Origin: Ignavibacteriaceae bacterium
GTDB taxonomy: Bacteria > Bacteroidota > Ignavibacteria > Ignavibacteriales > Ignavibacteriaceae
Direction: 5' to 3'
Assembly: GCA_013359345.1 (NCBI GenBank)
Contig: JABWCA010000012.1
Location: forward strand, 1 to 33,633
DNA: 33,633 bases
Shown: positions 2,085 to 30,807 of the stretch, in pieces
Position numbering within the stretch: position 1 is the first letter of the stretch
How the letters are laid out: the number at the start of each line of letters is the position of its first letter
Made by a program: the position numbers and the translations under genes
Notes under the pieces: generated by a model
Seen by the model: only the letters and a program-made list of their open reading frames with translations
Database searches by the model: none
Told to the model about the DNA's origin: nothing

Positions 2085-3047
2085 CTATCCGATATCAATC
2101 ACAAACTTCCCTTTCTCCATGATAAGAGAATCGTCAATCCAGACATTGGGTTCTTTAACCACGCCGTCAACATGAACAGGAATATTCACCGAGCCCCCCA
2201 TGCTGAGATTATTGCCGAGCGCTATATGGATGGTGCCCATTACCTTTTCATCTTCAAGAATCACCCCGCTGATTTTTGCAGTATCATTTGTTCCGATTCC
2301 GAATTCAGCGATGCTGTAGGCATCGGGACCGACACTCTTCAGCATATCATCAAGGGCCTTTGCCTTATCCCCTCCCTCAATTTTAACAACATAGCCATCC
2401 TTCACTTCAAGTCTTATATCCTTATCAACAAGACCAACCGAAGCAAAAGAACCGTCAACTATAAAAACTCCGTTTGATGTCCCTTCCATGGGAGCCAGAA
2501 ATGCTTCTCCTGTGGGGAGGTTGCCGCTCTCGCCAAACTCTCTGAATAATCCTTTTGAGGCATATGCCTTTCTTCCCTCAATCGAAAAAGAGATATCAGT
2601 GCCTTTTTCAGTGGTCACTCTCACCTTTTTTCCGGCCTCGAGAATACCGGCCAGTTTAATGGTTCTCGCGCATATTTTTTCATAATCGGCGCTCATACCC
2701 CTTATCATTATGTCCTCGGTGATTCCCGGAAATGTGGCAACCCTTTTCCCGAGGGCTGATGCCTCCCGGCGGGCATTGGTGTGGGTCAGTGACCTGAGAG
2801 TGGGCAGCAGTATAACATCAAACTCTTTCATCAGTCCTGCTATAAGCGCGGGCGGTTCTTCTCCGTTAATACGCATCGGTTTCATTTCAACATATAATGC
2901 TTCATGACCGAGCTCAAGAGCGGTATCAAAAAGGGCCTTCCCTATTTTTGAACAAACTGTGTCAGATACAATCAGAATTTTTTCATCCTGCCTCGCGCCC
3001 ATGCAAACACTTATTGCCGTATGGGCTGCTTTTTTAAGAGGGTCCAT
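2085..3047 (-). CDS. M29-type metallo-aminopeptidase (AmpS/AmpT-like, short form)
   Basis: The 320-residue cytosolic protein has the C-terminal half characteristic of thermophilic aminopeptidases (M29): GNLPTGEAFLAP around 176-186, AEFGIGTND at 247-255, GTIHIALG at 271-278 and VHVDG at 291-295. These supply the expected metal ligands E181, E248, H274, H292 and D294. Family enzymes remove N-terminal residues from peptides using two cobalt or zinc ions. It is about 90 residues shorter than classical M29 enzymes (about 410), with a compact N-terminal region, so it belongs to a divergent short subgroup; activity should not be taken as proven. It sits 38 nt downstream of the barrel gene and 38 nt upstream of the flippase gene, in the same unit as pepD and an MFSD1-like transporter, which supports peptide degradation. 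Confidence 0.85.
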   Translation of the reverse strand: MDPLKKAAHTAISVCMGARQDEKILIVSDTVCSKIGKALFDTALELGHEALYVEMKPMRINGEEPPALIAGLMKEFDVILLPTLRSLTHTNARREASALGKRVATFPGITEDIMIRGMSADYEKICARTIKLAGILEAGKKVRVTTEKGTDISFSIEGRKAYASKGLFREFGESGNLPTGEAFLAPMEGTSNGVFIVDGSFASVGLVDKDIRLEVKDGYVVKIEGGDKAKALDDMLKSVGPDAYSIAEFGIGTNDTAKISGVILEDEKVMGTIHIALGNNLSMGGSVNIPVHVDGVVKEPNVWIDDSLIMEKGKFVIDIG

Positions 3048-3085
3048 TTGATTCTCCGGATTTTACTGTAATATTATTAAAATTA

Positions 3086-3829
3086 TTAAAGAGGGAAACT
3101 GATATTAAGCTGAATAAGAGCAGTAAAGCCGCCTCCGCTTATGAAGTCGGTCATTGGTTCGTTAGATTGCTCATCCTTCGGGAAGGGACTTCCGTCAGGT
3201 TTTTCAAGCCGGTCAATTTTAAGATTTGATAAACCGGCCTGACCCTCAATGCTTATCTGCCGTTCCAGAAGGTAGATAATAAAACCACCTCCCACATTCC
3301 AGCCGATTCCGCCGGCAGAAGAGGTGTTTTTTTCTCTGATCAGCTGATTGTCATTCACCATAATTCTTCTGAACAGAATTGCAGTGTTATAACTCACCTC
3401 GGCATTTATAATTTTTATGCTGAGAAATTTCGTGATTGTTGAGCCAAGCTCGATTCCAACCCCGAATGAGTTAAGTTTTACTTCAAACTCCTCGGTTTTC
3501 TGGCCAAGCACAGAACGGATATGGAGATCGCGTGTTTCTGTCAGGGCTGAGTAGAACCCCTTAACCGTATACTCAAAACCGCTGACCCGGTTTCTTATAA
3601 TGTTGATACCGAAGCGGTACCCTGAAAGCCGGCTGAAATCACCACCGGGCGATATCAGGGAATCGCTTCTTAAAGTGTTAAGACTCCCGATATAACTGTT
3701 CAGGCCGGTCGGTTTGTATCCCTGAATTTCATAGCCGGCAAAGCCGCCCACAAACCCGAGGCACCCGAATCCCAGCTGCTGAGCACTCAGCACAGACGAT
3801 AATACGGTGAAGAGGATTAAGAGTTTCAA
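3086..3829 (-). CDS. Predicted outer-membrane beta-barrel protein
   Basis: I recognise no named family. The 247-residue product begins with a signal peptide (MKLLILFTVLSSVLSAQQ, likely cleaved after SSVLSA). The rest alternates short amphipathic beta-strands with aromatic girdles (for example YRFGINIIRN, FEYTVKGFYSAL, IGWNVGGGFIIYLL) and turns rich in Gly, Asp and Asn. It ends in a strand, ALIQLNISFPL, consistent with insertion by the BAM machinery, although the last residue is Leu rather than Phe. Length and pattern suit a barrel of 8-10 strands. The ATG is 5 nt from the stop of the MFS transporter gene and the M29 peptidase gene follows, so it is co-transcribed with peptide transport and hydrolysis genes. 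A channel for peptides is possible but only inferred. Confidence 0.65.
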   Translation of the reverse strand: MKLLILFTVLSSVLSAQQLGFGCLGFVGGFAGYEIQGYKPTGLNSYIGSLNTLRSDSLISPGGDFSRLSGYRFGINIIRNRVSGFEYTVKGFYSALTETRDLHIRSVLGQKTEEFEVKLNSFGVGIELGSTITKFLSIKIINAEVSYNTAILFRRIMVNDNQLIREKNTSSAGGIGWNVGGGFIIYLLERQISIEGQAGLSNLKIDRLEKPDGSPFPKDEQSNEPMTDFISGGGFTALIQLNISFPL

Positions 3830-3834
3830 AAGAA

Positions 3835-5127
3835 TTATGATTTACTCCTGATTCCTTTTTCAAGTCCGTGCCCTTTTGGACCCAGCTCTGCCCTTCTCAA
3901 CATAAAGGCAAACAGCATCCCGAAAAATCCGAGTGATGAAAAGATCCACATGCCGGGTGCATATCCCATCACATTTGATGCACTCGCACCGCTTACGTCG
4001 TTCACCCAGCCAATCAGGAAATTGAATCCCGCAAGGCCGATGTTCTGGATAAGAGTCATAAGACCATATGCAGTGCCCAGTTTCTGCTCTTCAACAATTA
4101 TTGCAACCGAGGGCCACATAACCGCCGGTATAAGCGCAAAGGCAATTCCCAGGAGGGAAAACGGTACGAAAGGACTGATATTTGTGTAAACAAGCATAAG
4201 ATATACCGGCACAAGCAGTGCGGAGCCTATCATCATTATGAGAGACCGCTTTCCCACAAAATCGGACATGAGCCCGAAAAGGGGTGTCAGGATCATTGAT
4301 GCCAGAGTAAGTATTGAAGATAAAAACGCGGCAGAGCCTCTGTCTATATTATGAACTTCCTGCATCATTTTTATCGCAAAGGTCTGGAACGGGAAAACAG
4401 CGCTGTAGAAAACAACGCATAACAGCACTATGAACCAGTATGAGCCGCTGAAACTGAAAATATCCTTAAAGTTAATTTCATCCTGTTTGCCCGGTGCCTT
4501 GATTGCATAGTTATTCACGGCATGTCTTTCAAGACCCCAGTAAACTATTACTGATACAACACAGATGATACCGGGAATTATTGCCATAAGCAAAGGTGTT
4601 CTCCACGATTCATACATCCATGAGCCCCAGTTCGGGGAGTTTAATGCGGCAAAGGTTCCGAGCCTTGCAATCGTGAGATTTAGCCCGAACGCAAATGAAA
4701 GCTCTTTCCCTTTAAACCATCTTCCGAGAGCTGTTGTTACCGCCACTATGAGCGATTCGGCTCCCACACCAAAAATAAGTCTTCCTGTTGCCATTATCGT
4801 GAATGAATCTGTGGCAATGGTAACCAGTGCGCCGATAAGACACAATGTGGCAAAGATAAAGGATGATTTCACGGTCCCGATTTTATCTATTACTATTCCC
4901 CCGATAAGCACCATGAAGATATTGGGAATACTGTAGATACCCTGAAGCAGACCTATATCAGAATCTGAAAAATTCAGCTGTGATTTCAGAAGATCGGCAA
5001 CGGGACTGAGTGAATCATATATGTAATAGTTTCCGAACATTGCTAAGGAAACCATCACAAGAACCGTCCACCTTAACATTACCGGCGGGTCAGGCCGTGA
5101 AGAGATATTTTCAGTGATTGAAGACAT
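3835..5127 (-). CDS. MFSD1-like MFS transporter, probable dipeptide carrier
   Basis: This 430-residue major facilitator has 12 predicted transmembrane helices and a central cytoplasmic loop near 200-222. Several segments look specifically like the eukaryotic lysosomal transporter MFSD1 and not a general sugar or drug MFS: GRLIFGVGAESL (115-126), RWFKGKELSFAFGLN (136-150), YSAVFPF (241-247), TPLFGLMSDFVGKR (281-294), and MWPSVAI with EEQKLGTAYGLMTLIQNIGLA (337-366). MFSD1 is known to move a wide range of dipeptides. The start ATG shares one base with the pepD stop (TAATG), so transporter and dipeptidase are made together. Inference: it carries dipeptides across the inner membrane for hydrolysis by PepD. 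Direction (import or export) is not visible from sequence. Family resemblance is from memory of the MFSD1 sequence, not an alignment. Confidence 0.82.
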   Translation of the reverse strand: MSSITENISSRPDPPVMLRWTVLVMVSLAMFGNYYIYDSLSPVADLLKSQLNFSDSDIGLLQGIYSIPNIFMVLIGGIVIDKIGTVKSSFIFATLCLIGALVTIATDSFTIMATGRLIFGVGAESLIVAVTTALGRWFKGKELSFAFGLNLTIARLGTFAALNSPNWGSWMYESWRTPLLMAIIPGIICVVSVIVYWGLERHAVNNYAIKAPGKQDEINFKDIFSFSGSYWFIVLLCVVFYSAVFPFQTFAIKMMQEVHNIDRGSAAFLSSILTLASMILTPLFGLMSDFVGKRSLIMMIGSALLVPVYLMLVYTNISPFVPFSLLGIAFALIPAVMWPSVAIIVEEQKLGTAYGLMTLIQNIGLAGFNFLIGWVNDVSGASASNVMGYAPGMWIFSSLGFFGMLFAFMLRRAELGPKGHGLEKGIRSKS

Positions 5128-6590
5128 TAGTTTTTCCCGGGAATATGTTTGAGAACATCTGTGAGTAAAATCCAGAAATTTTCAACCGACTTCACATTCA
5201 CCTGCTCATCGGGAGAGTGGGCTCCGGTGATTGTCGGTCCGAATGATACAATATCCATCGAGGCATATTTTTCTTTAAGGATACCACATTCAAGGCCGGC
5301 ATGAATTGCTTTCACTTCCGGTTCCTGATTGTACATTGCCTGAAATCTTTCTTTAAGCAGCACAAGTATCTGAGATTTAAGATCGGGTTTCCATCCGGGA
5401 TATCCGTCAAGAGTCTCAACCTCGGCACCCGCAAGAAGGAGCACTGAAACCACAGTCTGCACAGCATCTTCAATCTCTGATGCAACCGAACTTCTCTGGC
5501 TTGTGCCTATTTCAATCACACCGTCAAGTGTGTTTACAATTGCAAGATTTGTTGAGGTTTCAACCAGCCCCGGGATATCTCCGCTCATTTTAATGACGCC
5601 GTGGGGAAGAGCATAAAGTGCATGAATAAGTCTGTTTTTAACATTATCGGATATAATTGCTGCGGGAGCCGCAACATCTTTAACAACAACATCAAGGCCG
5701 GGTTCAACATTAGCAATTTCACCCCTGAAAACCTGCTTGAAGAATGCTATATCCTTTTTAAGCGCGTCTATTTTAGTGTTTTCAACACCGATAATTGCCT
5801 CGGCCTCTCTCGGTATTGCGTTTCTTTTACTGCCGCCGTTAATGCTGCTTACAACAATATTTTCTTTTGAATCAAGCGCTTTAAGTATTCTGGTCAGAAA
5901 TTTAATGGCATTTCCCCTTCCGGTGTGAATATCCAGACCGGAGTGACCGCCTTTGAGTCCCGATACAAATATCTCGACGAACGAGTAATTTGCAGGGGCA
6001 GGCACTGTCGTGTACCTGAACTTTCCGCGCGTGTCTCTGCCGCCGCTGCAGCCGATGTAAATTGCGCCTTCCTCTTCAGAATCGAGATTCAGGAGAATTT
6101 CCCCCTCAAGAAGGGATGTTGAAAGATTATTGGCACCTGTTAATCCTGTCTCTTCATCCAGAGTGAAAAGCAGTTCAAGCGGACCATGTTCAAGACCGGG
6201 TGTTACGGGAACTGCCATTGCAGCTGCCGCACCAATTCCGTTATCGGCGCCCAGAGTGGTGCCTCTTGCCTTAACCCAGCCGTCTTCTTCATATACATCA
6301 ATGGGATCATTGTCGAAATCAAAGTTCACGCCTTTATTTTTTTCGCACACCATATCAAGATGCGCCTGCAGCACTGTTGTTTTTCTGTTTTCATAACCGG
6401 GGGTTGCCGGTACTTTTATCACTATATTACCAGCTTCATCCCGCTGAAGATTCAGATTGTGCTTCTTTGCGAAATCAAGCACATATGCAACAACTTTTTC
6501 TTCTTTCTTGGATGGCCTCGGATGATTTGAAATCTCCTCAAAAATCTGCCATAATTTTTCTGGCTTTAAGCCTGCTAATTTACCGGACAT
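5127..6590 (-). CDS. pepD: Aminoacyl-histidine dipeptidase (M20C, PepD)
   Basis: This 487-residue cytosolic zinc dipeptidase has the full M20C layout. Metal and catalytic residues sit exactly three positions before the E. coli PepD numbering I know: H77 (in QAHLDM), D116 (GADNGIG), E146/E147 (LDEETG), D170 (NLDSEEEG) and H458 (GAHSPDE). HAGLECG at 430-436 is also typical. PepD cleaves Xaa-His and many other unblocked dipeptides, including carnosine in E. coli. It is the first gene of a six-gene minus-strand unit and is coupled by a one-base overlap to the MFSD1-like transporter. A weak ribosome site (GAGG) lies about 8 nt before the ATG. The 296-nt region upstream is the likely promoter region for the whole unit. 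Confidence 0.96.
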   Translation of the reverse strand: MSGKLAGLKPEKLWQIFEEISNHPRPSKKEEKVVAYVLDFAKKHNLNLQRDEAGNIVIKVPATPGYENRKTTVLQAHLDMVCEKNKGVNFDFDNDPIDVYEEDGWVKARGTTLGADNGIGAAAAMAVPVTPGLEHGPLELLFTLDEETGLTGANNLSTSLLEGEILLNLDSEEEGAIYIGCSGGRDTRGKFRYTTVPAPANYSFVEIFVSGLKGGHSGLDIHTGRGNAIKFLTRILKALDSKENIVVSSINGGSKRNAIPREAEAIIGVENTKIDALKKDIAFFKQVFRGEIANVEPGLDVVVKDVAAPAAIISDNVKNRLIHALYALPHGVIKMSGDIPGLVETSTNLAIVNTLDGVIEIGTSQRSSVASEIEDAVQTVVSVLLLAGAEVETLDGYPGWKPDLKSQILVLLKERFQAMYNQEPEVKAIHAGLECGILKEKYASMDIVSFGPTITGAHSPDEQVNVKSVENFWILLTDVLKHIPGKN

Positions 6591-6886: not shown

Positions 6887-7267
6887 TCAACTGATCCCTG
6901 AGGTCTCTTTAAACCGGATCAGTTCATTCTGATAAAGCATTGAAATAAATTTAACAAGCCTTTGTTCAACGGGGTGTGCATTTTCACCGAACTTTTCTTC
7001 CAGGATATCGCATAAGTCACGGATTTTCTTCTCTGAATCAATTCCGAGCCATACTGCTGAACCAAGATCATCAAGATCAAGTTTGAAATTCTTATCCCTT
7101 CCCTGCTTTTCAAGCAGCCTGTTCATAAACCCCGATTTATAACGCGGGATCAGTATGGTCACCAATCCCGCATCTGTGATAATATGTTCGTTTTTTCTTA
7201 CCGGAGTAAGATCAAGCACATTATAGTTCTTCAGTACCTTTTTTTCTTTGAGAACTCTGAAAAACAT
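6887..7267 (-). CDS. PqqD-like protein (RRE-type winged helix)
   Basis: The 126-residue protein matches the PqqD fold pattern: an N-terminal strand region with ITDAGLVTILIPRY near 30-43, then LDDLGSAVWLGIDSEKKIRD near 65-84, ending in a helix pair with VEQRLVKFISMLYQNELI. PqqD and its relatives (RiPP recognition elements) bind peptides, usually handing a precursor to a radical SAM or other modifying enzyme. No such enzyme or precursor is visible in this window. Instead the ATG shares one base with the stop codon of the OPT peptide transporter gene, so the two are translationally coupled. Inference: it binds peptides on the cytoplasmic side or modulates the transporter. It is slightly longer than PqqD itself (about 90 residues) because of a basic insertion near 44-62. 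Confidence 0.75.
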   Translation of the reverse strand: MFFRVLKEKKVLKNYNVLDLTPVRKNEHIITDAGLVTILIPRYKSGFMNRLLEKQGRDKNFKLDLDDLGSAVWLGIDSEKKIRDLCDILEEKFGENAHPVEQRLVKFISMLYQNELIRFKETSGIS

Positions 7268-9605: not shown

Positions 9606-10394
9606 ATGACAAATCAATATTCTGAAGACCTGAAACTGAGGCTGGAATATCATTACAATGCTTTTGATAAATCAACCGTCTCACCCGATCCCGTTGAATT
9701 TCCGCACCGGTATTCCTCCCCTCAGGATATCGAGCTTGCGGCATTCCTTTCATCGGTTTTTGCTTACGGCGGCATAACTCAGATCATAAAAACACTTGAG
9801 TCATTATTTGAAATGATGGGGCCCTCACCATTTGATTATCTGACCCGCAAAAGAAAAGGCAATTTTAACAAAACAGGATTGTATCACCGTTTTTACTCTT
9901 CTCATGATGTTGAGACGCTGCTTGCGGCACTCTCAGCAATACTCCTGAAATACGGCAACATAGGCAATATGTTCACCGGAGGTTATGATGAATCAGATAT
10001 CAACGTTCGGGGTGGCATTGAGAAATTTTCACAAAAGTTCACTGCAATTCTCAGCTCAGCAGATTCCGGCTTAACTCACGGCCTTAAACACATTCTGCCT
10101 GCCCCTTCTTCAGGGAGTGCCTGCAAAAGGATGAACCTGTTTCTTCGCTGGATGATAAGAAAAGATGAAATCGATTTTGGATTGTGGCAGGGTATCCCTC
10201 CTTCAAAACTGATTATTCCGGTTGATGTTCACATTGCAAGAATTGCTGCTCAGCTCGGGCTGACCGGGAGGAAAAATGTTAACTGGAAAATGGCCGAGGA
10301 GATAACTGCCGCCCTGAGTGTTTATGACAGTGCGGATCCTGTAAAGTATGATTTCGCCCTTTGCCATATCGGGATGAGAAAGCTTTCATTCTGA
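9606..10394 (+). CDS. DUF2400 / TIGR02757 family protein
   Basis: This 262-residue protein matches the Bacteroidota-rich TIGR02757 family: ELAAFLSSVFAYGG at 43-56, GSACKRMNLFLRWMIRKD at 170-187, DFGLW at 190-194 and PVDVHIARIAAQLGL at 205-219. The last motif closely resembles the helix-hairpin-helix-GPD signature of DNA glycosylases such as endonuclease III (P-VDTH-xxR-V-xx-RLGL), which suggests a shared fold and possible DNA-binding role. The exact function is unknown. It is a single-gene unit with no strong ribosome site; an ATG 7 nt upstream opens only a three-codon frame, so the start at 9606 is preferred. It is transcribed against the giant surface protein gene, with a structured 376-nt region between them. 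Confidence 0.85.
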   Translation: MTNQYSEDLKLRLEYHYNAFDKSTVSPDPVEFPHRYSSPQDIELAAFLSSVFAYGGITQIIKTLESLFEMMGPSPFDYLTRKRKGNFNKTGLYHRFYSSHDVETLLAALSAILLKYGNIGNMFTGGYDESDINVRGGIEKFSQKFTAILSSADSGLTHGLKHILPAPSSGSACKRMNLFLRWMIRKDEIDFGLWQGIPPSKLIIPVDVHIARIAAQLGLTGRKNVNWKMAEEITAALSVYDSADPVKYDFALCHIGMRKLSF

Positions 10395-10426
10395 TTCAAA
10401 GCAGATTCATCATTCTTTAAAATAAA

Positions 10427-10501
10427 GGGCGCCCAGAGCTTTATCCAAGAAGGTAAAAGGATAAAGGAGGGCGCCGACTGCCATCTCGGGTCATCTGGCA
10501 G
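10427..10501. other. Two-stem structured element (terminator or non-coding RNA)
   Basis: GGCGCCC at 10428-10434 pairs with GGGCGCC at 10469-10475 (7 bp). Inside it CTTTATCC at 10439-10446 pairs perfectly with GGATAAAG at 10459-10466, leaving a 4/2 internal loop and a 12-nt A/G-rich loop. Immediately after, CTGCCA at 10478-10483 pairs with TGGCAG at 10496-10501 around a 12-nt loop. It starts 33 nt past the DUF2400 stop. There is no T tract after it on the plus strand, so it is not a typical intrinsic terminator. A known RNA family was not recognised. Confidence 0.5.
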
Positions 10502-10581
10502 TATAAACTTATAATATGTAGATTTTAAACTTGCTGCGGGATCTGAATTTTATCGGTACAAATGTAACACAAAGTCATACT

Positions 10582-10641
10582 TCAGGTTATTAATAAATCA
10601 ATTTCATCTGAAATCATACAAAGGTACAAAATATAACCTGA
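10582..10641. repeat. Nested inverted repeat
   Basis: TCAGGTTAT at 10582-10590 is the perfect reverse complement of ATAACCTGA at 10633-10641. The 42-nt loop contains a second palindrome, ATTTCA-TC-TGAAAT at 10601-10614. A T-rich stretch follows on the plus strand, so it may end transcription from the DUF2400 gene, or act as a protein-binding site. Confidence 0.4.
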
Positions 10642-10711
10642 TCTTCAAAATAAATTTTTTGTTATATTTTATCAGACCGTGAGAGGGCTTAGAGAATTAT
10701 CCCCGATTAAG

Positions 10712-10736
10712 GCGGGATGCTGTGCAGGCACCCCGC
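10712..10736 (-). terminator. GC-rich hairpin after the giant protein gene
   Basis: GCGGGATGC at 10712-10720 pairs with GCACCCCGC at 10728-10736 with one A-C mismatch and a 7-nt loop. It begins 35 nt past the stop of the 3175-residue protein. No T run follows on the minus strand, so termination may be weak or the hairpin may protect the mRNA 3' end. Confidence 0.45.
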
Positions 10737-10770
10737 TGTTGAAAATTATCCCGTTTCAAAGGAAGATCAT

Positions 10771-13700
10771 CTATTTCATCAGTACCATTTTCCTTATGAA
10801 AGTATATGTCTTTCCGGTATGCGGCACAGCTTCCATCCTCAGAATGTAGACTCCTGAAGAAAGAGTATTCGCATTAAGTGCTGCCGTGTGATACCCGGCC
10901 GTGAGTACTCCTCTCACAAGCCCGAGCACTTTACAACCTGTGACATCATAAACCGAAAGAGTGACATCAGATTCCTCAGGCAGTGCAAACTTAATGATTG
11001 TTGACGGGTTAAACGGATTCGGGAAATTCTGACTGAGCTCGAATTTCTCAGGCAATCCGTTTGGCTCGCTGATTCCCGTTATAATCCTTACAGAGGCAGT
11101 ATTGGAGTATACTGAAGTATCCAGAGCATTGTAATTTCTGATTCTGTAAGTATAGAACTGTCCTCCTCCCGTCACATTAAGATCGGTGTATTCAGTGACA
11201 GCAGAATCCACTTCAGCAATAACAAGATATGGCACCGTTCCTGAACTGTCTCCATCCTTACGTTCAATAACCACTTTTTCTTCGCTTGAGGATATATCAG
11301 TCCATGAGAGCTTGATTTTGTACCCGGCTGTTGTGTCAGCCCTTAAATTCTGCGGAGCAGAAATCCTGGTTGTAAACCTGAACGGATCTGTAAAATCGGT
11401 GTACACATTCAGTTTTGTTCTTACCCGCCAGTAATACTTTCGTCCGTCTCTCAGAGGAAGTGTAAGATTGGTGTCAGTAAGAACAGAGTCAATCAGCTTA
11501 ACTATGAAAGTGCTTTCGCCTGATAACTGAAAGTTGTAAGAAAGCATCTGATTTTCCTCAGTCTCTGTTTTGTTTACTGATTTACCATTGAAACGGACAA
11601 TTCTTAATGCACCCTCATGCATGACCTTTTTATCATCATCGGGTGACTTCCAGTTGAAATGAACAAGCAAGGGTAATTTTCCTGAGTTATCTGGAGGAGT
11701 TACCAGAACAGGAACTGTAAGATAAACAGACACGATTTCTGAATTGCTTGCCGAACTTGTGTCAAGCTGATTGAAACATTTGATTCTGTAAGTAAAAACA
11801 GAAGTGTCAGAGTAAAGAATAAAAGATGAATCAGTGAAAGTTACTGTCCCGGAAGGTTTAATCCCCACGAGAAGGAATGGTGAAGTGCCGGAAGTATCTC
11901 CTGTTCTGCGTTCAATGAAATATCCTGTTTCACGTGTTGAGATATCATCCCACTGCAGTGAAATTCTTCTTATCGAGCTGCCCGTCACAGAAAGATTATC
12001 GGGATGTCTCAGTTCAGTGGTGAAATTCCATGTCTCACTGTACTGCCCTCTTATTCCGTTCACTATTGCTCTTATCCGCCAGAAGTATTTTTGTCCGTCT
12101 TCAAGGCTCACAGAGGCAATGGTATCGGTTATCGTTGAGTCAAGGAAAACAATGTTCGTGAAAGATGCTTCTCTGGCAATCTGAAGTTCATAGACCGGAT
12201 CAATGGCTTCACCTATTGATTTCAGCTTGTTCCAGATAAAGATCGCGGTGTCACTGATGTTACGCTCATAGTTCTGCGGAGTTAATTGTGTCACCCTTCT
12301 GATCCCTACTGTTGCTGTCACCATTTTGCTCCGGTATGAGGTGTCAACCGCATTGTAGCAATGTATTCTGTATGTATACTTATTCTGTATCTGTGAAATA
12401 GTCAGGTTGGAATCAGTAATTTCAGAAGTGTTCTGACCCGTTCGTCTTATCTCAAAAAAGGGCTCGATACTCAGAGAGTCGCCCGATTTTCTTTCAATCA
12501 CATAATTTGTTTCATTAAGCGAGTTTTCACTCCATGTAAGTTTTACATCATTAAGGTTTGAGACACTTACAGAGAGACTGTCAGGAATTCTCAGTCTGGT
12601 GATGAACATGGATGCTGTGTCATACAATCCGTTTACACCTGTAACCTCAGCCCTGATGCGCCAGTAATACCGCTTTCCGTCTTCAAGGTTAACCCTGGTG
12701 GTACTGTCGGTTATGGTTGAATCATTGAATAAGATATTGTTAAATTCCGTATCATCTGATATCTGAAGCTGATAATACACCACTGAACCTTCTGTCAGCG
12801 TTCTGATCCTGTTCCATACGAATTTAACCGAATCAGGCAGCACCCTCTCGCTGTTTTCAGGTGAGAGACTTGTAACCTGAGATATAGTCATGGATGAAAA
12901 TGTGATATTACTGCTTAACGAAGTGTCATTCTGGTTAATGGCATAAACTCTGTAAGAATAATATGTCCTGATACCGGTAAACTGTACGGCAGAATCAAGA
13001 TAAGCGGTGGTGTTTGCGGGAAGCAATGCAATCTGAATGAATGGGTTAACAGTTGTGGAGTCTCCTTCACGTCTTTCAACGATAAATCCCTGTTCATTTG
13101 CCGACGAATCTGCCCATGCCAGAGTGATATCATTAATCAGGGCCACTGAGCTGGCCAGCTCCAGCGGTTTTCTTAGCTCCGTTACAAAATTTCTGACAAT
13201 ACCCGAATCACCGTAAACACCGTCAACTATCGGTCTGACCCTCCAGTAATATTTCATACCGTCTTCAAAAATCAGCGCTGCGGAGGAATCTGTAATAAAA
13301 AGATTGTACAGAAGCGTGTCAAAAACAGGGCTCCCGGAAACCTGGAGGTTGTAATTCACCTGAGATCCTTCCCACTCCGTCCTTATCCTGTTCCATGAGA
13401 ATCCGATATTTTCAGGCAGATTCCTGACAGAATCGGGAGGGTATATCTGATTAACTGACTGAAGTTTCAGGCTGATCATCCTGGCATTTCCGGGTGAAGC
13501 AGTATCAATCATGTTACAGGCAATCAGTCTGTATGAGTATTGTGAGGGATTATTATAGACTGCAACCGATGAATCTGTGTATACTGAATCAGATCCTGGC
13601 ACAATAGCAATAGTCATGAAATCCGCCACCTGCGTTGAATCGCCTGCTTTTCTCTGTATCAGAATTGAATCTGCATTAACTGTGTTGTTTCTCCAGTCAA

Positions 13701-16700
13701 GTTTCACATCATTGATATTATAAGCATTAAGAGTGAGGGCAGAGACCGAATTCAGATCGGTGGTGATCTTTCTTACCTCACTGTAATTGCCCTTCCCTTC
13801 CGTAACTTTCGCCCGTACACGCCAGAAGTATCTTTTACCGTCCTGCAGCACAACCGTTTTTAAGGTATCGGTAAGCGTTGAGTCCGAAAAATAGAATCCG
13901 GTGAATGTTGAATCCTCCGAAATCTGCAGATGGTAATAGACGGATGATCCCGATGAAAGAGTCCTTAATCGTTTCCATTGAAAGTCCACCGTTTCATCTG
14001 AATTATACAGATTATTTTCCGGCAGCAGAATTGTTACAGTTTCAATACCTATTGTCACTGATTCTTCATTTGAGGAATTTGAAGTATCGAACGGACTGAA
14101 AGCCTTTATCCTGTAACTGTAAACGTTAATAGTATCCTGCAGATTCAGTCCGGTATCCGTAACCGCAGTTGTGTTCTGTGCGAGTATCATCACCGGCTGA
14201 TAAATCCAGAGCGAATCTGAAGGGAATCCCTTTTTCCTTTCAACGATATAACCTGTCTCATTCAGTGTCGGATCTGTCCAGATGAGTTCCACATCATTGA
14301 TATTCTTTACCAGTTTACCGCTCAGAGCCGGGACTCTCAGTTTTGTGTACAGACTCCTGATTGAGCCAAGCTGACCCGTCACCCCGTTAACAACCGGCCT
14401 TACCCGCCAGTAATATCTTTTACCGTCTTCCAGTGTAACCTGTTTGAATGTGTCAGTAACAGTAACATCATAAACAGGCGGAATCATGGTCTGATTTTCC
14501 GAAATCTGTATGTTATACCAGACAACTGAAGCAGCACTTACAGTGGTAAGCCGCTCCCATCTGAATTCTGATATTTCCGCAATCTCTCTCGCTTCATCAG
14601 CAGGTGATGAGAGAACAACCGGCGCGAGCCTCAGATTTACTTCAATCTGATTTCCGGGAAGTGAAGTATCGGCTGAGTTATAGGCGAAAACTCTGTATGT
14701 GTATTTTGACGGGAGTTCATAAAAAACTGCATTGGTATCAGTAAAATATGTAGTGTTAGCAGTGGTTGCACCAATGGTTATATAAGGATTTCCTGAGAGG
14801 CTGTCACCGGTTTTTCTCTGGATAATAAATCCCGCTTCATTGTTGGTTGTCTCTTCCCAGTTAAGAACCACATCGTTTATGTTCCTGATAACGGGGTATC
14901 CGGCGAATGGCTTTTTCAGTTCAGTTGTGAATTGCCGCGTGCTGCTGAAAAATCCCTCGCCTCCGTTGACCAGAGCCTTAACCTTCCAGAAGTAATTTTT
15001 TCCGTCTTCAAAAAACAGCGTAAGAGAAGTATCAGTAATAACAGTATCGCTGAATGCCTGCCCCGAAAAATCCGCACTCTCAGAGATGAGCAGATTGTAG
15101 CTGACTGCAGACCCCTGGCTCAAAGTCCTGATTTGTTTCCAGTTAAGAGTGATGTTCTGTTCCAGATCACGCGCATAATTCACAGGCATTACAGGTTCCA
15201 CGGTTGCAATACCAACTCTGATTTCTCTTACATTACTGTATCCTGAGGTATCAGATGAACTGTAAGATCTTAACCTGTAACTGTAAGTTGTCACGGCACC
15301 GTTAAGTAAAATTTCCTGATCGGTATAACTGACCGAAACTGATGGGAGATTTGCAATAACTGTCCATTGTAAGGCACTTAATGAATCTCCGGCTTTTCTT
15401 TCGATAATATGTGCTACGGCATTAAGAGTGTTGTTGGTCCAGTCAAGTCTGACATCATTTATATTAAGCGCTTTCAGCGCAAGGGAAGAAGCTGAATTAA
15501 GATCGGTTGTTAGACTTCTTACCTCACTGTAATTTCCCCTGCCTTGTGTTACCTTTGCTCTTACGCGCCAGTAATATTTTTTGCCATCCTGAAGATTCAC
15601 CATGCGTGATGAGTCAGTGATTGTGCTGTCACTGAAAACCAATTGATTGAATGCCGCTGATTCTGAAATCTCAAGCTGATAGTAAACAACCGAGCCGGCA
15701 GAAACTGAGTTGATTCTTTCCCATGAAAAGCGGACATTTTCATCAGAATTCAGTAATCCGTTCACCGGTTCTGCAAGCCTGACTCTTTCAATACCCGCAA
15801 GTATCTGAATGGGATTTGATAGGGCTGAAGTGTCATGCTGACTGAATGCGCTTATTCTGTAACTGTAAACGGCATTTGTGTCCTTAATTATCAGGTTGCT
15901 GTCTGTTGTTACGGTTGTGTTACCCGGGAGTATTTTCACGACCTGATATGCCTCGGTTGTATCTTCAGTACCTCCGCTTTTTCTTTCGAGAATATAACCT
16001 GTCTCATTTTCTCCCGGGTCTGTCCATTGCAAAGTGGCATCATTAATATTGGTTATATTCCAGGCAGTAAACTGACTTCCTCTTAGTGCAGTTACAAAAC
16101 TTCTTATCTCGCCGGGACCGGTCACACTGTTAACCACCGGTCTGACCTGCCAGTAATATCTTTTACCATCCTTTAACTGAATTATTTTTGATGTGTCTGT
16201 CATTTGTGCATCAAACACGCTGTTTGCAAACTGTGCGTCTTCTGAGACACGCAGATGGTACTTCACCTGTGCTGCAAGAGGAGCTGTGCGGATTTTATTC
16301 CATTTAAGCTCACAGTTTTCAGGCAGTTCCCGGTCCTCGTCGCCCGGAGAGGAAAGTTCAACGGCAAGCAGTGATAATCTCACTGTCAGCTGATCACCGT
16401 AATCTGAAGTATCCTGGTCATTAAACGCCTCAATCCTGTAAGTATAGAACGAAGGTAAGGAATAAAAAACTGCGCTTGTATCGGTGTAATTCAGAATGCC
16501 GGCGCCTGTGACTGCCAGCAGTGCATACTGATTTGGTGAAAGCGAATCCCCCTGCTTTCTGTAAATCCTGAAGCCATTTTCATTTACTCCCGTGTGATTC
16601 CATGAGAGCTCAATTTCACTTATATTTTTTGATACCGCGGTGAGTCCGTGAGGGGCATAAAGTCTTGTCACAAAACTGAAGGGCTCAGAAAATGCTCCTG

Positions 16701-19700
16701 ATGAATTTGAGACCAGAGATTTTACTCTCCAGTAATACTTTTTCCCGTCCTGAAGCAGATATGTCAGAGCGGTATCAGTTACAACTGAATCCGCCACGGG
16801 ATTTCCTGCAAATTCCGCGTCTTCTGAAATCTGTATTCTGTAATAGACGGGTGATCCTTCCGCAAGAGTTTTCAATTTACTCCACCTGAAATCAACCTGT
16901 CTTTCAAGCTCACGTATACCGTCACCGGGCGATATTAACTGCGGGGTACCTATTCCGATATTTACAGTAACTGAATTGCTGAATATGGATGTATCAATCT
17001 CATTTTTGGCCTGAACCAGATATGAATAAGATGTGGTCTGGTTTTTAATTAAAAGACTGGTGTCTGTGTAACTTTCACTTCCTGCGGCTAAAGCTTTAAT
17101 GGGAAAGTAGATTCCGCCGCCGTCATTCCTGTACACAAAGACAGTATCTTCCGTCACAGAATTAAGCTGCCAGTTAAGGGTTACATCATTAATATTTTGT
17201 AAAGTGTAACTCAGATTTGAAGGGGGTTCAAGTTCAGTCATAAACAACCGGACCTGATTTGAATCGCTGTCAGCATTATGAAGCCGTGAACGCACGCTCC
17301 AGTAAAGTTGTTCCCCTCCGCGCAACGGAACATTTATCAGGGTGTCTGTAATCAGGGTGTCAAATATGACTGTGTTAAATCCCGGATCACGGGCTACCCG
17401 CAAATTATAAAAGAGAGCTGAGGATGAATTACGTTCACGTATAGGTTCCCAGAAAAATACAAGAGGGGTTGGCAGATACCGGCTGCTGTCCTGAGGGAAA
17501 GTCATTCTGACCCGGGGCATGATGATCCGGGCAGAGGCATGGTTAGAAAACGCCGAAGAATCATAATCATTATAAGCCTGAACCCTGTATCTGAAATTTG
17601 TAAACGATTTGCTTATTATCAGATCAGCATCCGTGTACGATCTTTCGGCAGCCGATGCAGTGTCAATAGTAATAAAGTCTCCGCCGGATAATGAATCCCC
17701 TTCAGCACGCTGTATCAGGTAACCCTTATGAGTAAAATTCTGGCTGTCTTCCCAGTTCAGAACCACATCGTTAATATTAATGATATCAGCAGAAAGGTTC
17801 ACCGGTGCTCTCAGTTTTTTAACTATTCTGAAAGATGCATTGCCTGAATCAGAAACATCCTGATACCTTAAGTCAGTAATTTTGATGAGATAATCACCGT
17901 CAGGATAACTTTCATCCACAGGATACAAAACTGTATCTCTTAAAAAAGCAACAGATTCATAAATGGTCTTCCAGCTCAGAGAATCTGTGTGTCTCAGAGC
18001 TATCCGGACTGAATCAACATCGCTGCCGTTCCATGAAATAAGGCCCTTATCTCCGGTTTTCCAGACTTCTCCCCCGTTCGGATTGAGTAATGTTAATGAA
18101 GGGGTGACTATTCTGAAATCGGAGTCACTTATATCTCCCACGGAGGGATCACCCATCTTCTGCACTCTGATCTTTACTTTCCCCGAGGAAATTTCAGGCA
18201 GCAGCCATCTGTAAAATGAAGTATCCTTGAAATTTACTGCTACAGGATACCAGACGAGCCCGCCATCTGTAGTATAGTCGATGTTGACAAAACCCACTCC
18301 TGTGCTTGTCCATTTAATGACATAATCTGTGCCCCCTCTTAAAACTTCACCGCCGTCAGGATCTGCTACCCGTATCAGTTCATAGAAAATTGAATCGGTT
18401 GAAACACGGCTGACATCAAAGCCTCTCACTGAATTAGCACCTGCCAGAATCAGCCTGTATTCGTCTGAATTTACAGACGGGGTATAGAGATACTCATTTT
18501 CACCCAGTTTTATTTTAAGAGTGCCGTTTGCTGAAGGTACTATTTCCGGTTCTTCCCAGACGCCTGATTCATAACTGCCTATTTGGATTGCAGTATCCTT
18601 TACGCCTCCGGCAAAATACTTTTCATATATCTGGATTATGCCGTTTCTGAACCGAAGCCCGGCAAAATGCGTTGCATCGCCCCCAAGACCGCTGCCGATT
18701 CCGAAAAATGCTTCACTTGCATTCGCGCTCTGAGATGCCAGCCAGGGCTTTATCTTAAACCTGATCCTTTTCCCTCCTGAAAATGACTCTGAGCTTATCA
18801 GTTCAGTAAGGCTGTTGCCCGGCTGATTAAATACTGCAAATGAATCAATTGCCGGGAACCAGTCGCCTGTTCTGATTCCTCCGCTCCACAGTGAACCGTT
18901 CCACAAACTTTCCACGAAATGCAGCTCTTTTTGATTCCATCCCCTCTCTGTGTAAAGAATTTTAATCTCCTCTTCAGACAAAGCCGTGCTGTAGAGCCTC
19001 ACATCATCAATGGCCCCTTTGAATTTAATACCCCCCGGGCCTCCCCCTGAAATATTCCCGATCTTCAATGTTAAAAACCTGGTTGTATCAGGCAGAGCTC
19101 CGTTATCCGTTGAATCAACCAGAACTCCGTTAAGATAAAGTTTGCCTTTTGATCCCTGCACAGTTGCCGCAATATGATACCAGACTCCTGTTTCAAGCCT
19201 TGTTTTGCCGTAAACAGAGTTCAGGTACGCCGGCCTTGTAACCCATTTGAAGTTTGCCCGCCCCCCCGTTTCTATCCTTAATCCTTCCTGATCCCTCGTC
19301 GTTTCCCCGTAATCAACAATAAACTTCTGGTAAACCGTGGTTTCCGATAGCCTGAACCAAGCAGAAGCCGTATGATCACCAGCGGCAAAGCGACTAAGCA
19401 CCGTATCAGGTGTGATAATTACTTCACTGTTTACTCCGTCAAACAAACCCGCACCATTCTGATTTCCGAATCTGTCTGTGGTATACTGCAGGGAGAACGG
19501 CTGTCCGTTTTGGCCGTTTCCGCTCGAATCATTCGTATTTCCATTCAGCGGATAATATGCCCGGAGCGAGTTCACGGCCTGTGAATTCAATCCGTTCACG
19601 TAAACATTATCAACTGATATTCTGTCATCACCGCCCCCGAAACCAAAATATCCGTTCTTCTCTTCTGAGAGCAAACCACTGTATGATGTGATCAGCGTTC

Positions 19701-20298
19701 TGGCCTGACCCATTTCATAAAAATAAATTTCAAACCCTGATGCTGTGGGCACCATTTCAAACTGGTAATTCACACCCGTGGAAAACGATTTGGTGCCGGT
19801 GAAAAGAATGTTTGAGGATTGAGGATAATTGTGTTTTATAAGATACCAGCGGCTGTCTCTCGCTGAAATGCTGAAACTGTACCCCAGTATATCCTGGTAA
19901 TTCTGATAGGTACCGCCAATATTGCGGATATAAAAATAAAAGATTATCTGCCTGTTGGCATCATCATAAGCCTGTTCAATTCTGGCTTCGGCAGAAAAGG
20001 AGTAGTTATAATAATTCAGACTGCCTGCACTCAGAAATGTTCTTTGCTGATCACGGGTAGTGATATTAACTCTTCCGTTTTCAATATAAGGATCAGGCAC
20101 CGCGCCGTGAAGACCGGTTGAAAATCTGTAAAACTGCCATTTTGCGAGACTGCCGGTACTGAAATCTTCACTGAAAAGCAGTTCCCCTTCTTTATTAAGG
20201 CCCTGATTAAAACTTTTTAATCCGCTCTGAGGCCACAGGCCTGCAGTTATAAATATTGTGAAAAGCACCAGAATCTTTGTAAAGTACTCTTTTTTCAT
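10771..20298 (-). CDS. Giant T9SS-secreted surface protein with FN3-like domain array
   Basis: This 3175-residue protein starts with a signal peptide (1-24). Domains in order: a jelly-roll domain (about 35-240); a LamG/concanavalin-like domain (about 243-455) with DGVNSEVIITP and GAIDDVRLYSTALSEEEI; a third lectin-like region (456-640); two Kre9/KNH-like Ig domains with PDGGEVLRGG and PNGGEVWKTGD (641-822); then from about 826 twelve FN3-like A domains marked by the NINDVxLxW motif, alternating with eleven B domains marked by DGKxYYWRVR. One A+B pair is about 194 residues. The end (about 3085-3175) is a T9SS sorting domain with NFPNPFNPST and a final KMVLMK. I count only about five cysteines. 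No catalytic domain is visible, so an adhesin, sheath or matrix role is inferred. GAGGA lies 5 nt before the ATG. It is probably a single-gene unit. Confidence 0.92.
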   Translation of the reverse strand: MKKEYFTKILVLFTIFITAGLWPQSGLKSFNQGLNKEGELLFSEDFSTGSLAKWQFYRFSTGLHGAVPDPYIENGRVNITTRDQQRTFLSAGSLNYYNYSFSAEARIEQAYDDANRQIIFYFYIRNIGGTYQNYQDILGYSFSISARDSRWYLIKHNYPQSSNILFTGTKSFSTGVNYQFEMVPTASGFEIYFYEMGQARTLITSYSGLLSEEKNGYFGFGGGDDRISVDNVYVNGLNSQAVNSLRAYYPLNGNTNDSSGNGQNGQPFSLQYTTDRFGNQNGAGLFDGVNSEVIITPDTVLSRFAAGDHTASAWFRLSETTVYQKFIVDYGETTRDQEGLRIETGGRANFKWVTRPAYLNSVYGKTRLETGVWYHIAATVQGSKGKLYLNGVLVDSTDNGALPDTTRFLTLKIGNISGGGPGGIKFKGAIDDVRLYSTALSEEEIKILYTERGWNQKELHFVESLWNGSLWSGGIRTGDWFPAIDSFAVFNQPGNSLTELISSESFSGGKRIRFKIKPWLASQSANASEAFFGIGSGLGGDATHFAGLRFRNGIIQIYEKYFAGGVKDTAIQIGSYESGVWEEPEIVPSANGTLKIKLGENEYLYTPSVNSDEYRLILAGANSVRGFDVSRVSTDSIFYELIRVADPDGGEVLRGGTDYVIKWTSTGVGFVNIDYTTDGGLVWYPVAVNFKDTSFYRWLLPEISSGKVKIRVQKMGDPSVGDISDSDFRIVTPSLTLLNPNGGEVWKTGDKGLISWNGSDVDSVRIALRHTDSLSWKTIYESVAFLRDTVLYPVDESYPDGDYLIKITDLRYQDVSDSGNASFRIVKKLRAPVNLSADIININDVVLNWEDSQNFTHKGYLIQRAEGDSLSGGDFITIDTASAAERSYTDADLIISKSFTNFRYRVQAYNDYDSSAFSNHASARIIMPRVRMTFPQDSSRYLPTPLVFFWEPIRERNSSSALFYNLRVARDPGFNTVIFDTLITDTLINVPLRGGEQLYWSVRSRLHNADSDSNQVRLFMTELEPPSNLSYTLQNINDVTLNWQLNSVTEDTVFVYRNDGGGIYFPIKALAAGSESYTDTSLLIKNQTTSYSYLVQAKNEIDTSIFSNSVTVNIGIGTPQLISPGDGIRELERQVDFRWSKLKTLAEGSPVYYRIQISEDAEFAGNPVADSVVTDTALTYLLQDGKKYYWRVKSLVSNSSGAFSEPFSFVTRLYAPHGLTAVSKNISEIELSWNHTGVNENGFRIYRKQGDSLSPNQYALLAVTGAGILNYTDTSAVFYSLPSFYTYRIEAFNDQDTSDYGDQLTVRLSLLAVELSSPGDEDRELPENCELKWNKIRTAPLAAQVKYHLRVSEDAQFANSVFDAQMTDTSKIIQLKDGKRYYWQVRPVVNSVTGPGEIRSFVTALRGSQFTAWNITNINDATLQWTDPGENETGYILERKSGGTEDTTEAYQVVKILPGNTTVTTDSNLIIKDTNAVYSYRISAFSQHDTSALSNPIQILAGIERVRLAEPVNGLLNSDENVRFSWERINSVSAGSVVYYQLEISESAAFNQLVFSDSTITDSSRMVNLQDGKKYYWRVRAKVTQGRGNYSEVRSLTTDLNSASSLALKALNINDVRLDWTNNTLNAVAHIIERKAGDSLSALQWTVIANLPSVSVSYTDQEILLNGAVTTYSYRLRSYSSSDTSGYSNVREIRVGIATVEPVMPVNYARDLEQNITLNWKQIRTLSQGSAVSYNLLISESADFSGQAFSDTVITDTSLTLFFEDGKNYFWKVKALVNGGEGFFSSTRQFTTELKKPFAGYPVIRNINDVVLNWEETTNNEAGFIIQRKTGDSLSGNPYITIGATTANTTYFTDTNAVFYELPSKYTYRVFAYNSADTSLPGNQIEVNLRLAPVVLSSPADEAREIAEISEFRWERLTTVSAASVVWYNIQISENQTMIPPVYDVTVTDTFKQVTLEDGKRYYWRVRPVVNGVTGQLGSIRSLYTKLRVPALSGKLVKNINDVELIWTDPTLNETGYIVERKKGFPSDSLWIYQPVMILAQNTTAVTDTGLNLQDTINVYSYRIKAFSPFDTSNSSNEESVTIGIETVTILLPENNLYNSDETVDFQWKRLRTLSSGSSVYYHLQISEDSTFTGFYFSDSTLTDTLKTVVLQDGKRYFWRVRAKVTEGKGNYSEVRKITTDLNSVSALTLNAYNINDVKLDWRNNTVNADSILIQRKAGDSTQVADFMTIAIVPGSDSVYTDSSVAVYNNPSQYSYRLIACNMIDTASPGNARMISLKLQSVNQIYPPDSVRNLPENIGFSWNRIRTEWEGSQVNYNLQVSGSPVFDTLLYNLFITDSSAALIFEDGMKYYWRVRPIVDGVYGDSGIVRNFVTELRKPLELASSVALINDITLAWADSSANEQGFIVERREGDSTTVNPFIQIALLPANTTAYLDSAVQFTGIRTYYSYRVYAINQNDTSLSSNITFSSMTISQVTSLSPENSERVLPDSVKFVWNRIRTLTEGSVVYYQLQISDDTEFNNILFNDSTITDSTTRVNLEDGKRYYWRIRAEVTGVNGLYDTASMFITRLRIPDSLSVSVSNLNDVKLTWSENSLNETNYVIERKSGDSLSIEPFFEIRRTGQNTSEITDSNLTISQIQNKYTYRIHCYNAVDTSYRSKMVTATVGIRRVTQLTPQNYERNISDTAIFIWNKLKSIGEAIDPVYELQIAREASFTNIVFLDSTITDTIASVSLEDGQKYFWRIRAIVNGIRGQYSETWNFTTELRHPDNLSVTGSSIRRISLQWDDISTRETGYFIERRTGDTSGTSPFLLVGIKPSGTVTFTDSSFILYSDTSVFTYRIKCFNQLDTSSASNSEIVSVYLTVPVLVTPPDNSGKLPLLVHFNWKSPDDDKKVMHEGALRIVRFNGKSVNKTETEENQMLSYNFQLSGESTFIVKLIDSVLTDTNLTLPLRDGRKYYWRVRTKLNVYTDFTDPFRFTTRISAPQNLRADTTAGYKIKLSWTDISSSEEKVVIERKDGDSSGTVPYLVIAEVDSAVTEYTDLNVTGGGQFYTYRIRNYNALDTSVYSNTASVRIITGISEPNGLPEKFELSQNFPNPFNPSTIIKFALPEESDVTLSVYDVTGCKVLGLVRGVLTAGYHTAALNANTLSSGVYILRMEAVPHTGKTYTFIRKMVLMK
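13165..16665 (-). repeat. Higher-order duplication inside the FN3 array
   Basis: A+B pairs 3, 4 and 5 (about 16665-14915) resemble pairs 6, 7 and 8 (about 14915-13165) in the same order. Pairs 3/6 share TDT-AVFY-LPS-YTYR and RPVVN-VTG. Pairs 4/7 share TDP-NETGYI-ERK, NSDE-V-F-W and KGNYSEVR (RGNYSEVR in pair 4). Pairs 5/8 share NNT-NA plus RKAGDS. Each block is about 1750 nt (583 codons). Boundaries are approximate because they come from protein motifs, not a DNA alignment. Pair 10 also resembles pairs 4 and 7. Confidence 0.65.
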
Positions 20299-20660
20299 TC
20301 AATCCTCGGCTGAATACCATTTTATTCTGTCTGCAACAGAAATTCCGGATCTGTGCTCAATTCAATTAAAGCAGCAGCGCTCTCTGTTTACAGATGGGAA
20401 ATTAAAATTTCCCGTCATTAATGGAGTTATACGGGGAAAGAAATATTCTGAGGAAAATGAGGCTGTTTTTTTTTCAGATTGTGATATCAGGCACAGGTTC
20501 GTTCATTCTTTTCATGGAATAGTCGGATATGTGAAGATATTTTTTCGCTAAAGAAACTAATTGTAATATGTGATTTTGGGCTAACGCGGGAATAAAAGTA
20601 AGGGCAGTTAAGAACCTGCCCTCTGTAAAAAAATATCAGGAGGACTTTTGGACATCCCCC
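20299..20660. other. Intergenic region upstream of the giant protein gene
   Basis: This 362-nt gap separates the BNR protein gene (upstream on the minus strand) from the giant protein gene. It contains the hairpin at 20601-20622 and the leader of the giant gene, with a GAGGA ribosome site just before the start. An open frame at 20258-20551 on the plus strand overlaps the giant gene's 5' end and has no supporting start signal. No clear promoter pair was identified. Confidence 0.5.
20601..20622 (-). terminator. Intrinsic terminator-like hairpin after the BNR gene
   Basis: AGGGCAG at 20601-20607 pairs perfectly with CTGCCCT at 20616-20622 around an 8-nt loop. On the minus strand the hairpin is followed by TACTTTTATT, a moderately T-rich tail. 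It lies 38 nt past the stop of the BNR protein gene, in the right place to end that transcript. Confidence 0.6.
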
Positions 20661-22657: not shown

Positions 22658-23371
22658 TTAACCTTTCATAAGGGAGATCATTTCCCTTACTGCTTTATCA
22701 ACTCCTGTATAAACTGCCCTGGCAATCACTGCATGGCCTATACTCAGCTCATCAATATCAGAAAGTTCTCTGAATATTTTAATATTCTGATAATTAAGTC
22801 CGTGACCGGCATTAACGCCAAGCCCGAGTTTCTTTGCATGCTTTGCTGCAAATCTTATTTTTTCAAGCTCATCAAACTGCTCTTCCTCGGTCTTTGCCTC
22901 AGCAAAAACGCCGGTGTGAATTTCAATAAGGTCTGAGCCAATCTCTGCGGCTGCATTTATCTGCTCTTCATCAGGCTCAATAAACAGGGATACAAGAATA
23001 TCGCTCTTGTGCAGATCTCTTATTGTGTCACGGAGATTATCAATATTGTCTATAACATTGAGCCCGCCTTCGGTTGTGAGCTCAAGTCTCTTTTCAGGCA
23101 CAAGTGTTGCCAGTTCAGGCTTTACATCACACGCAATTTTAATTATATCTTCAACGGCAGCCATTTCAAGATCGAGCTTGGTTTTAATAACTTCCCGGAG
23201 AAGATACAGATCTCTTTCTTTAATATGTCTTCTGTCTTCCCTGAGATGCACCACTATTCCGTCGGCTCCGGCAAGCTCAGCCTGCAGGGCAACCGTAACG
23301 GGATCGGGTTCATTTCCCCCCCTGGCATTTCTCAGAGTTGCAACATGATCAATATTAAGACAAAAACGCAT
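22658..23371 (-). CDS. pdxJ: Pyridoxine 5'-phosphate synthase
   Basis: This 237-residue TIM-barrel enzyme makes pyridoxine 5'-phosphate from 1-deoxyxylulose 5-phosphate and 3-amino-1-hydroxyacetone 1-phosphate, the ring-closing step of the DXP-dependent vitamin B6 pathway in the cytosol. The sequence shows LNIDHVATLRNARGG at 5-19, VHLREDRRHI at 41-50, DLEMA at 67-71, ELTTEGGLNV at 97-106, NAGHGLNY at 187-194 and a phosphate-binding IGHAVIARA. Catalytic residues H42, E69 and H190 fall at a constant offset of three from E. coli PdxJ (H45, E72, H193). Length is normal (243 in E. coli). It follows the CPBP-type membrane protein gene by 14 nt, so the two are co-transcribed; no functional link is evident. 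Confidence 0.97.
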   Translation of the reverse strand: MRFCLNIDHVATLRNARGGNEPDPVTVALQAELAGADGIVVHLREDRRHIKERDLYLLREVIKTKLDLEMAAVEDIIKIACDVKPELATLVPEKRLELTTEGGLNVIDNIDNLRDTIRDLHKSDILVSLFIEPDEEQINAAAEIGSDLIEIHTGVFAEAKTEEEQFDELEKIRFAAKHAKKLGLGVNAGHGLNYQNIKIFRELSDIDELSIGHAVIARAVYTGVDKAVREMISLMKG

Positions 23372-25873: not shown

Positions 25874-25904
25874 GTTAAGTAACCTTTTATAATCATTTTG
25901 GTAT

Positions 25905-26927: not shown

Positions 26928-26941
26928 AAATGCGGTGAGTT

Positions 26942-28399: not shown

Positions 28400-28425
28400 G
28401 CCGATTTAAGTAAGCCGAGGCAAAA

Positions 28426-30795: not shown

Positions 30796-30807
30796 TGGCA
30801 GGCATAT

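Follow-up and report, generated by a model that had tools for sequence, protein, structure and literature searches.

A candidate dipeptide carrier of the MFSD1 family encoded beside pepD in an Ignavibacteriaceae bacterium

Introduction

MFSD1, the carrier of the major facilitator superfamily (MFS) by which dipeptides leave animal lysosomes, was assigned its substrate only in 2024 and has been called phylogenetically unassigned. The present work concerns a bacterial gene whose product appears to belong to the same family, found on a contig of an Ignavibacteriaceae bacterium (JABWCA010000012.1 of assembly GCA_013359345.1; 33,633 nt, analysed at full length and referred to here as the window), where its start overlaps the end of the dipeptidase gene pepD. 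A first-pass annotation of this DNA had likened the product to MFSD1 and drawn a complete route of peptide salvage around it.

Mouse MFSD1 is known to transport dipeptides, not single amino acids, and in it the dipeptide is surrounded by Y56, Y59, E150, Q176, R181, Y276, F280, Y365, W373, Q393, Q396, N397 and L400; E150 and R181 clamp the two ends of the dipeptide, D60 is critical too in mutants, and the gate includes N157 and F173 (PMC11252000). That paper names a further gate residue, Y369; under the numbering used here the mouse chain has alanine at this position, and the label could not be matched.

Relationship of the carrier to MFSD1

In a phmmer search of the PDB the best match of the window carrier was mouse MFSD1 (8r8q_A, E 8.7e-54), followed by NorA at E 0.0022, and a profile of 27 relatives again placed mouse MFSD1 first (E 6.4e-72), with MCT1 second at 8.7e-8. 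Identity to the mouse protein is 30-35% over nearly the full length. The AlphaFold2 (AF2) model has a 12-helix MFS fold (predicted local distance difference test score, pLDDT, 86.9) and in Foldseek its first-ranked match is 8r8q_A, at 30% identity, so the likeness to MFSD1 claimed by the first-pass annotation is seen in sequence, profile and structure searches alike. VIA-align of the same model puts other MFS chains at the top, with 8r8q not among the 50 matches listed, a result that neither adds nor excludes anything, as its Z ranking among MFS chains may reflect the conformational state in which each was captured.

Pfam recognises the carrier only at the level of the MFS_1 superfamily and the NCBIfam models fall far below their cut-offs. 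It does not fall within POT/PTR2, there being no match to PF00854 and no ExxERFxYY motif, with transmembrane helix 1 (TM1) reading RWTVLVMVSLAMFGNYYIYD. A chance or generic MFS likeness to MFSD1 is ruled out by the gap in E-values and by the residue pattern described below, and on sequence the carrier is a member of the MFSD1 family.

The same placement is found in an IQ-TREE phylogeny of 69 rows, in which mouse MFSD1 (residues 34-423) is the sole eukaryotic sequence. Mouse MFSD1 lies inside the bacterial tree, where it joins a small clade formed by loci L083, L085, L086, L087 and L108 (support 96/95), and the MFSD1-type carriers, mouse included, are separate from the remaining MFS proteins encoded in the window genome. 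Grouping with another MFS family had been named as the outcome that would count against the likeness; the carrier groups with MFSD1, away from the MFS proteins encoded elsewhere in its genome. The tree also hints that eukaryotic MFSD1 may have descended from bacteria; given the long branch leading to mouse (2.97) and the use of a partial, single eukaryotic sequence, this is a lead and not a result.

Conservation of the substrate site

Both residues of the mouse clamp are present in the window carrier, E150 and R181 corresponding to E124 and R155. Identical also are Y34, Y37, D38, Y241, F245, W338, Q361 and N362, the counterparts of mouse Y56, Y59, D60, Y276, F280, W373, Q396 and N397. Across an alignment of 151 bacterial homologues, some loci being in it twice, the positions of Y56, R181, Y276, F280, W373 and Q396 are invariant, E150 is invariant bar one undetermined residue, and the D60 position is occupied, in all but one case, by D or, within one deep group, by E. 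The pattern is absent from the eight other MFS proteins that a family search found in the same genome. Thus the loss of the MFSD1 substrate-site residues, by which the first-pass annotation had proposed to judge its own claim, is not what is seen; the clamp and most of the site are kept.

In 41 columns of the alignment the bacterial sequences reach 98% identity or more, and the mouse protein agrees with them in 31 of these. No additional conserved acidic residue suggests itself as an obvious proton site.

Linkage to pepD and its recurrence in relatives

The two genes join as ...aaaaaCTAATGtct, one base being common to the pepD stop codon (TAA) and the MFS start codon (ATG), which is the sharing of a base that had been reported earlier. 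The neighbourhood was sampled in the best 80 matches, with loci taken from species genomes, and all neighbouring open reading frames (ORFs) were clustered without reference to the window. The commonest neighbours of the carrier were an OPT-family oligopeptide transporter, PepD, a PqqD-like protein, an M29-type peptidase, a predicted outer-membrane barrel and DUF2400. The order OPT, PqqD, PepD, MFSD1, barrel, M29 recurs, usually as in the window. Among relatives with enough flank, PepD is directly upstream of the MFSD1-like gene in 31 of 71; OPT is upstream in 27/49 and M29 downstream in 33/62, and PqqD is present in 25/49 and the barrel in 27/68. A second layout lacks pepD and runs OPT, MFSD1, PqqD, barrel, M29; in those of its genomes that were checked pepD is located elsewhere. 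The linkage of pepD in related genomes on which the first-pass annotation relied is therefore real, at 31 of 71, but not universal, several sister genomes keeping pepD elsewhere, and it is a feature of some lineages and not of the whole family.

A dependence of pepD on MFSD1 is rejected, since pepD is still present, at other positions, in genomes of the same family or order for which no carrier turned up. Inherited synteny as the sole cause of the linkage is weakened by pairs of loci in which the neighbours are far closer than the carriers. L085 and L019 have OPT proteins 84% and PepD proteins 76% identical, with further downstream genes mostly at 55-70%, whereas their MFSD1 proteins are 38% identical and of different clades; L083 and L014 have PepD 85% identical and MFSD1 proteins, again of different clades, at 40%. 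Since PepD and OPT proteins at 76-85% identity adjoin distant MFSD1 proteins, it seems, from these sequences, that one MFSD1 type was replaced by another beside the same PepD. The MFSD1 protein of L091, which is adjoined by PqqD and PepD, scores 251 bits against the profile of the window family, mouse MFSD1 scoring 246 bits. The M2 peptidyl-dipeptidase is about 68% identical between L090 and L040, L060, L072 and L076, the adjoining MFSD1 proteins being from different clades, and in the latter four loci a POT gene is directly downstream. That the same PepD or M2 peptidase is found beside different MFSD1 clades speaks for a common function in the use of dipeptides.

The PepD of the window is an ordinary member of its family (TIGR01893, 580.5 bits against a cut-off of 343.75; PDB 3mru, E 5.3e-131), with metal-ligand residues H77, D116, E146/E147, D170 and H458 at least 97% conserved. 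A quick FastTree, rooted at the midpoint, separates two groups of operon PepDs from the stand-alone pepDs. The stand-alone genes, from genomes whose MFSD1 operon has no PepD (L198-L201, L194-L197), mostly follow a gene for a GTPase of about 360 aa, YchF-like by eye.

Two further observations were made on the neighbourhoods. A proline dehydrogenase gene lies 5' of the OPT or PepD gene in L083, L085, L006, L007, L026 and L034, a position that may link peptide uptake with amino-acid breakdown in that sub-lineage. In the Fidelibacterota loci L149-L159 one chromosomal site is shared by MFSD1-like genes of two clades, for the most part divergent from the gene for NamZ and, judged by eye, near rplU/rpmA; in L149 a Vut_1 gene comes next after the MFSD1-like gene.

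Organisation of the cluster

The six genes are transcribed from the minus strand in the order of Table 1 (window ORFs, Pfam and NCBIfam). The ORF coordinates confirm the earlier order of pepD, MFS gene, barrel and M29 across 2085-6590, with the latter two downstream of the MFS gene on the same strand, and that part of the cluster stands as it had been annotated; the OPT and PqqD-like genes, which lie outside those positions, had been missed. Gaps of 5 nt and 38 nt separate the MFS gene from the barrel and the barrel from M29, and the OPT and PqqD-like ORFs have base 7267 in common. A 296-bp gap splits the PqqD-like gene from pepD, because of which a common transcript for all six genes is not implied. 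No Rfam family is present in the window, thus no regulatory RNA was found in this gap 5' of pepD, and scans for promoters and terminators yielded numbers of sites similar to those in shuffled DNA and so are uninformative. Within the genome there is a single pepD and a single OPT gene, both in the cluster, and one POT gene, elsewhere.

Table 1. Genes of the cluster and the pepD junction, in order of transcription (aa, amino acids; positions are those of the window)
Feature	Position	Strand	Basis
OPT-family oligopeptide transporter, 654 aa	7267-9231	-	PF03169, TIGR00733
PqqD-like protein, 126 aa	6887-7267	-	PF05402
PepD, cytosolic beta-Ala-His/non-specific dipeptidase, 487 aa	5127-6590	-	TIGR01893, PDB 3mru
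TAATG overlap of pepD stop and MFS start	5125-5129	-	sequence reading
MFSD1-family MFS carrier, 430 aa, predicted dipeptide carrier	3835-5127	-	PDB search, profile, model, tree
Predicted 8-stranded outer-membrane beta-barrel, 247 aa, TTG start, signal-like N-terminus	3086-3829	-	AF2, structural matches
M29-type metallopeptidase, 320 aa	2085-3047	-	PF02073, metal ligands

The OPT assignment is strong (Pfam, E 2.2e-102; TIGR00733, E 2.2e-121, 406 bits against a cut-off of 182.5). Uptake of several dipeptides is moderately lowered in opt mutants of Porphyromonas gingivalis (PMC8048996), and from this and from family identity the OPT protein probably functions in oligopeptide uptake. The PqqD-like protein reaches 30.8 bits in Pfam against a cut-off of 23.4, with NCBIfam models below cut-off. 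Its gene is steady in the relatives and its position varies: one layout has it between OPT and PepD, the second between MFSD1 and the barrel. A gene for a ribosomally synthesised and post-translationally modified peptide (RiPP) was not seen beside it.

The barrel has no Pfam family. Its AF2 model (pLDDT 91.2) has eight long strands and is nearest to NspA, OprF and OmpA, with Z about 16. Barrels of the 8-stranded OmpA/NspA type usually lack a channel wide enough for peptides. The first-pass annotation had proposed a full route from barrel to carrier to dipeptidase to aminopeptidase, and since such barrels are mostly too narrow, neither the step from barrel to carrier nor the route in that form is supported.

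The M29-type enzyme is shorter than classical M29 peptidases, and the PDB sequence that it matches best is that of NicX, a related dioxygenase. It is recognised by Pfam at E 1.6e-17 (63.8 bits, cut-off 27) and the expected ligands E181, E248, H274, H292 and D294, an assignment we presume from AmpS/AmpT, are kept, at least at 97% in 37 homologues.

Beyond OPT lies a divergent DUF2400 gene (9606-10394). Many relatives have pdxJ and DUF2400 just 5' of OPT on the same strand, and in the window DUF2400 is inverted. Two large genes, apparently for secreted proteins (3175 and 615 aa), lie within 9606-22508, between DUF2400 and pdxJ (22658-23371), which suggests an insertion and rearrangement there. 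Further on, the plus strand of 24428-33040 carries, by eye, a chemosensory gene set, with genes for a CheR-like protein, two CheW-like domains, a methyl-accepting protein, a CheA-like hybrid kinase, a CheB-like protein and a response-regulator histidine kinase.

Proposed function and alternatives

It is likely that the MFS protein is a bacterial MFSD1-family carrier that takes dipeptides through the inner membrane and feeds them to PepD. The basis of this reading is homology, the retained site residues, the gene overlap and the recurrent linkage. Periplasmic dipeptides would enter through the carrier, their amino end lying at E124 and their carboxyl end at R155, in the way that E150 and R181 are proposed to act in the mouse protein. 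Should the carrier work, like MFSD1, as a uniporter, hydrolysis by PepD on arrival could pull import. Longer peptides would come in through OPT and be trimmed by the M29 enzyme, with the cluster as a whole acting as a peptide-salvage unit.

A number of points weigh against dipeptide import. Compared with mouse, the window carrier has T in place of N157, N of Q176, F of Y365 and T of Q393, and the mouse pose between E150 and R181 itself rests on weak density, simulation and mutants (PMC11252000). More than half of the relatives lack PepD linkage, including Fidelibacterota and Bacteroidales with other neighbours, in the latter secreted proteases (C10 and trypsin-like) and genes that by eye resemble menaquinone genes. 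The loci are related, hence neighbour counts are not independent. Transport, the substrate, trapping by hydrolysis and the inward direction are what we infer from the comparisons, and the choice of uptake over export is a weak point among them.

Export would see OPT import peptides, PepD and M29 hydrolyse them, and the carrier release excess dipeptides or amino acids. The cluster does include a peptide importer, OPT, and the direction of a uniporter follows the gradient; a co-expressed cytosolic dipeptidase, however, keeps internal dipeptide low and favours influx, and in L083, L090 and L091 the carrier is beside PepD or the M2 peptidase without an adjacent OPT. Export is quite unlikely.

The Fidelibacterota loci bring a different substrate into question, as their usual divergent neighbour, beside two MFSD1 clades, encodes the exo-beta-N-acetylmuramidase NamZ, a further point that tells against dipeptide import. 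The family may there serve wall recycling, by carrying a peptidoglycan fragment such as a wall dipeptide or a muramyl compound, and in that lineage this is a live alternative. As a general account it is improbable, for no NamZ lies near the gene in the window lineage, neighbours such as PepD, OPT, M29, the M2 peptidase and POT are suggestive of ordinary peptides, and NamZ sits in a conserved chromosomal context, such that its linkage may be positional.

Pht proteins transport amino acids. TCDB places MFSD1 in their family (2.A.1.53; code from PMC9333335), yet that the carrier moves single amino acids, with PepD linkage reflecting use of hydrolysis products, is very improbable given that in mouse the substrates of MFSD1 are dipeptides, single amino acids not being transported (PMC11252000), and that the dipeptide-spaced E150/R181 pair is kept in all 151 homologues bar the one undetermined residue.

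Dipeptide import feeding PepD is consequently the reading preferred here, and the comparisons suggest that a whole bacterial family of MFSD1-type carriers may take up dipeptides as food. More tentatively, and with some doubt, MFSD1 could be an ancient family of bacterial dipeptide uniporters of which the lysosomal eukaryotic carrier is a descendant, bacterial import being driven by hydrolysis, through the pairing of a uniporter with a cytosolic dipeptidase, both encoded by overlapping genes, in place of proton-coupled uptake.

Comparison with known systems

No description of bacterial MFSD1 homologues or of such an operon was found in the open-access literature searched, most subscription papers lying outside it. 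Mouse MFSD1, a lysosomal dipeptide uniporter (8r8q; PMC11252000, PMC10990142), has the same MFS fold, the clamp and most of the site residues; the present carrier, by contrast, is bacterial, its gene overlaps pepD, the residues at N157, Q176, Y365 and Q393 differ, and its transport is a prediction. The accessory subunit of MFSD1, GLMP, is a mammalian lysosomal glycoprotein, and the bacterial carrier has no known GLMP partner, GLMP not having been searched for. A bacterial family with the site kept, beside a dipeptidase, offers a simple system for questions of mechanism, namely uniport versus proton coupling, direction and the role of Q176, and it gives a likely functional meaning to genes annotated just as 'MFS transporter' in family libraries.

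The PepD of the window belongs to the family of 3mru and TIGR01893 and differs from the described enzymes by its operon linkage. In P. gingivalis, also a member of the Bacteroidota, POT and OPT take up dipeptides, the contribution of OPT being known from gene disruption, with no MFSD1-type carrier listed and the genes not described as a cluster with pepD and M29 (PMC8048996). The proton-coupled POT/PTR2 transporters (DtpA, PepT1) share the MFS fold and the presumed substrate class, and adjoin the carrier in L040, L060, L072 and L076, but are a separate MFS family, the carrier lacking both PF00854 and the TM1 motif ExxERFxYY. In Ignavibacteria and their relatives the MFSD1-type carrier is predicted to join POT and OPT as a third means of dipeptide uptake.

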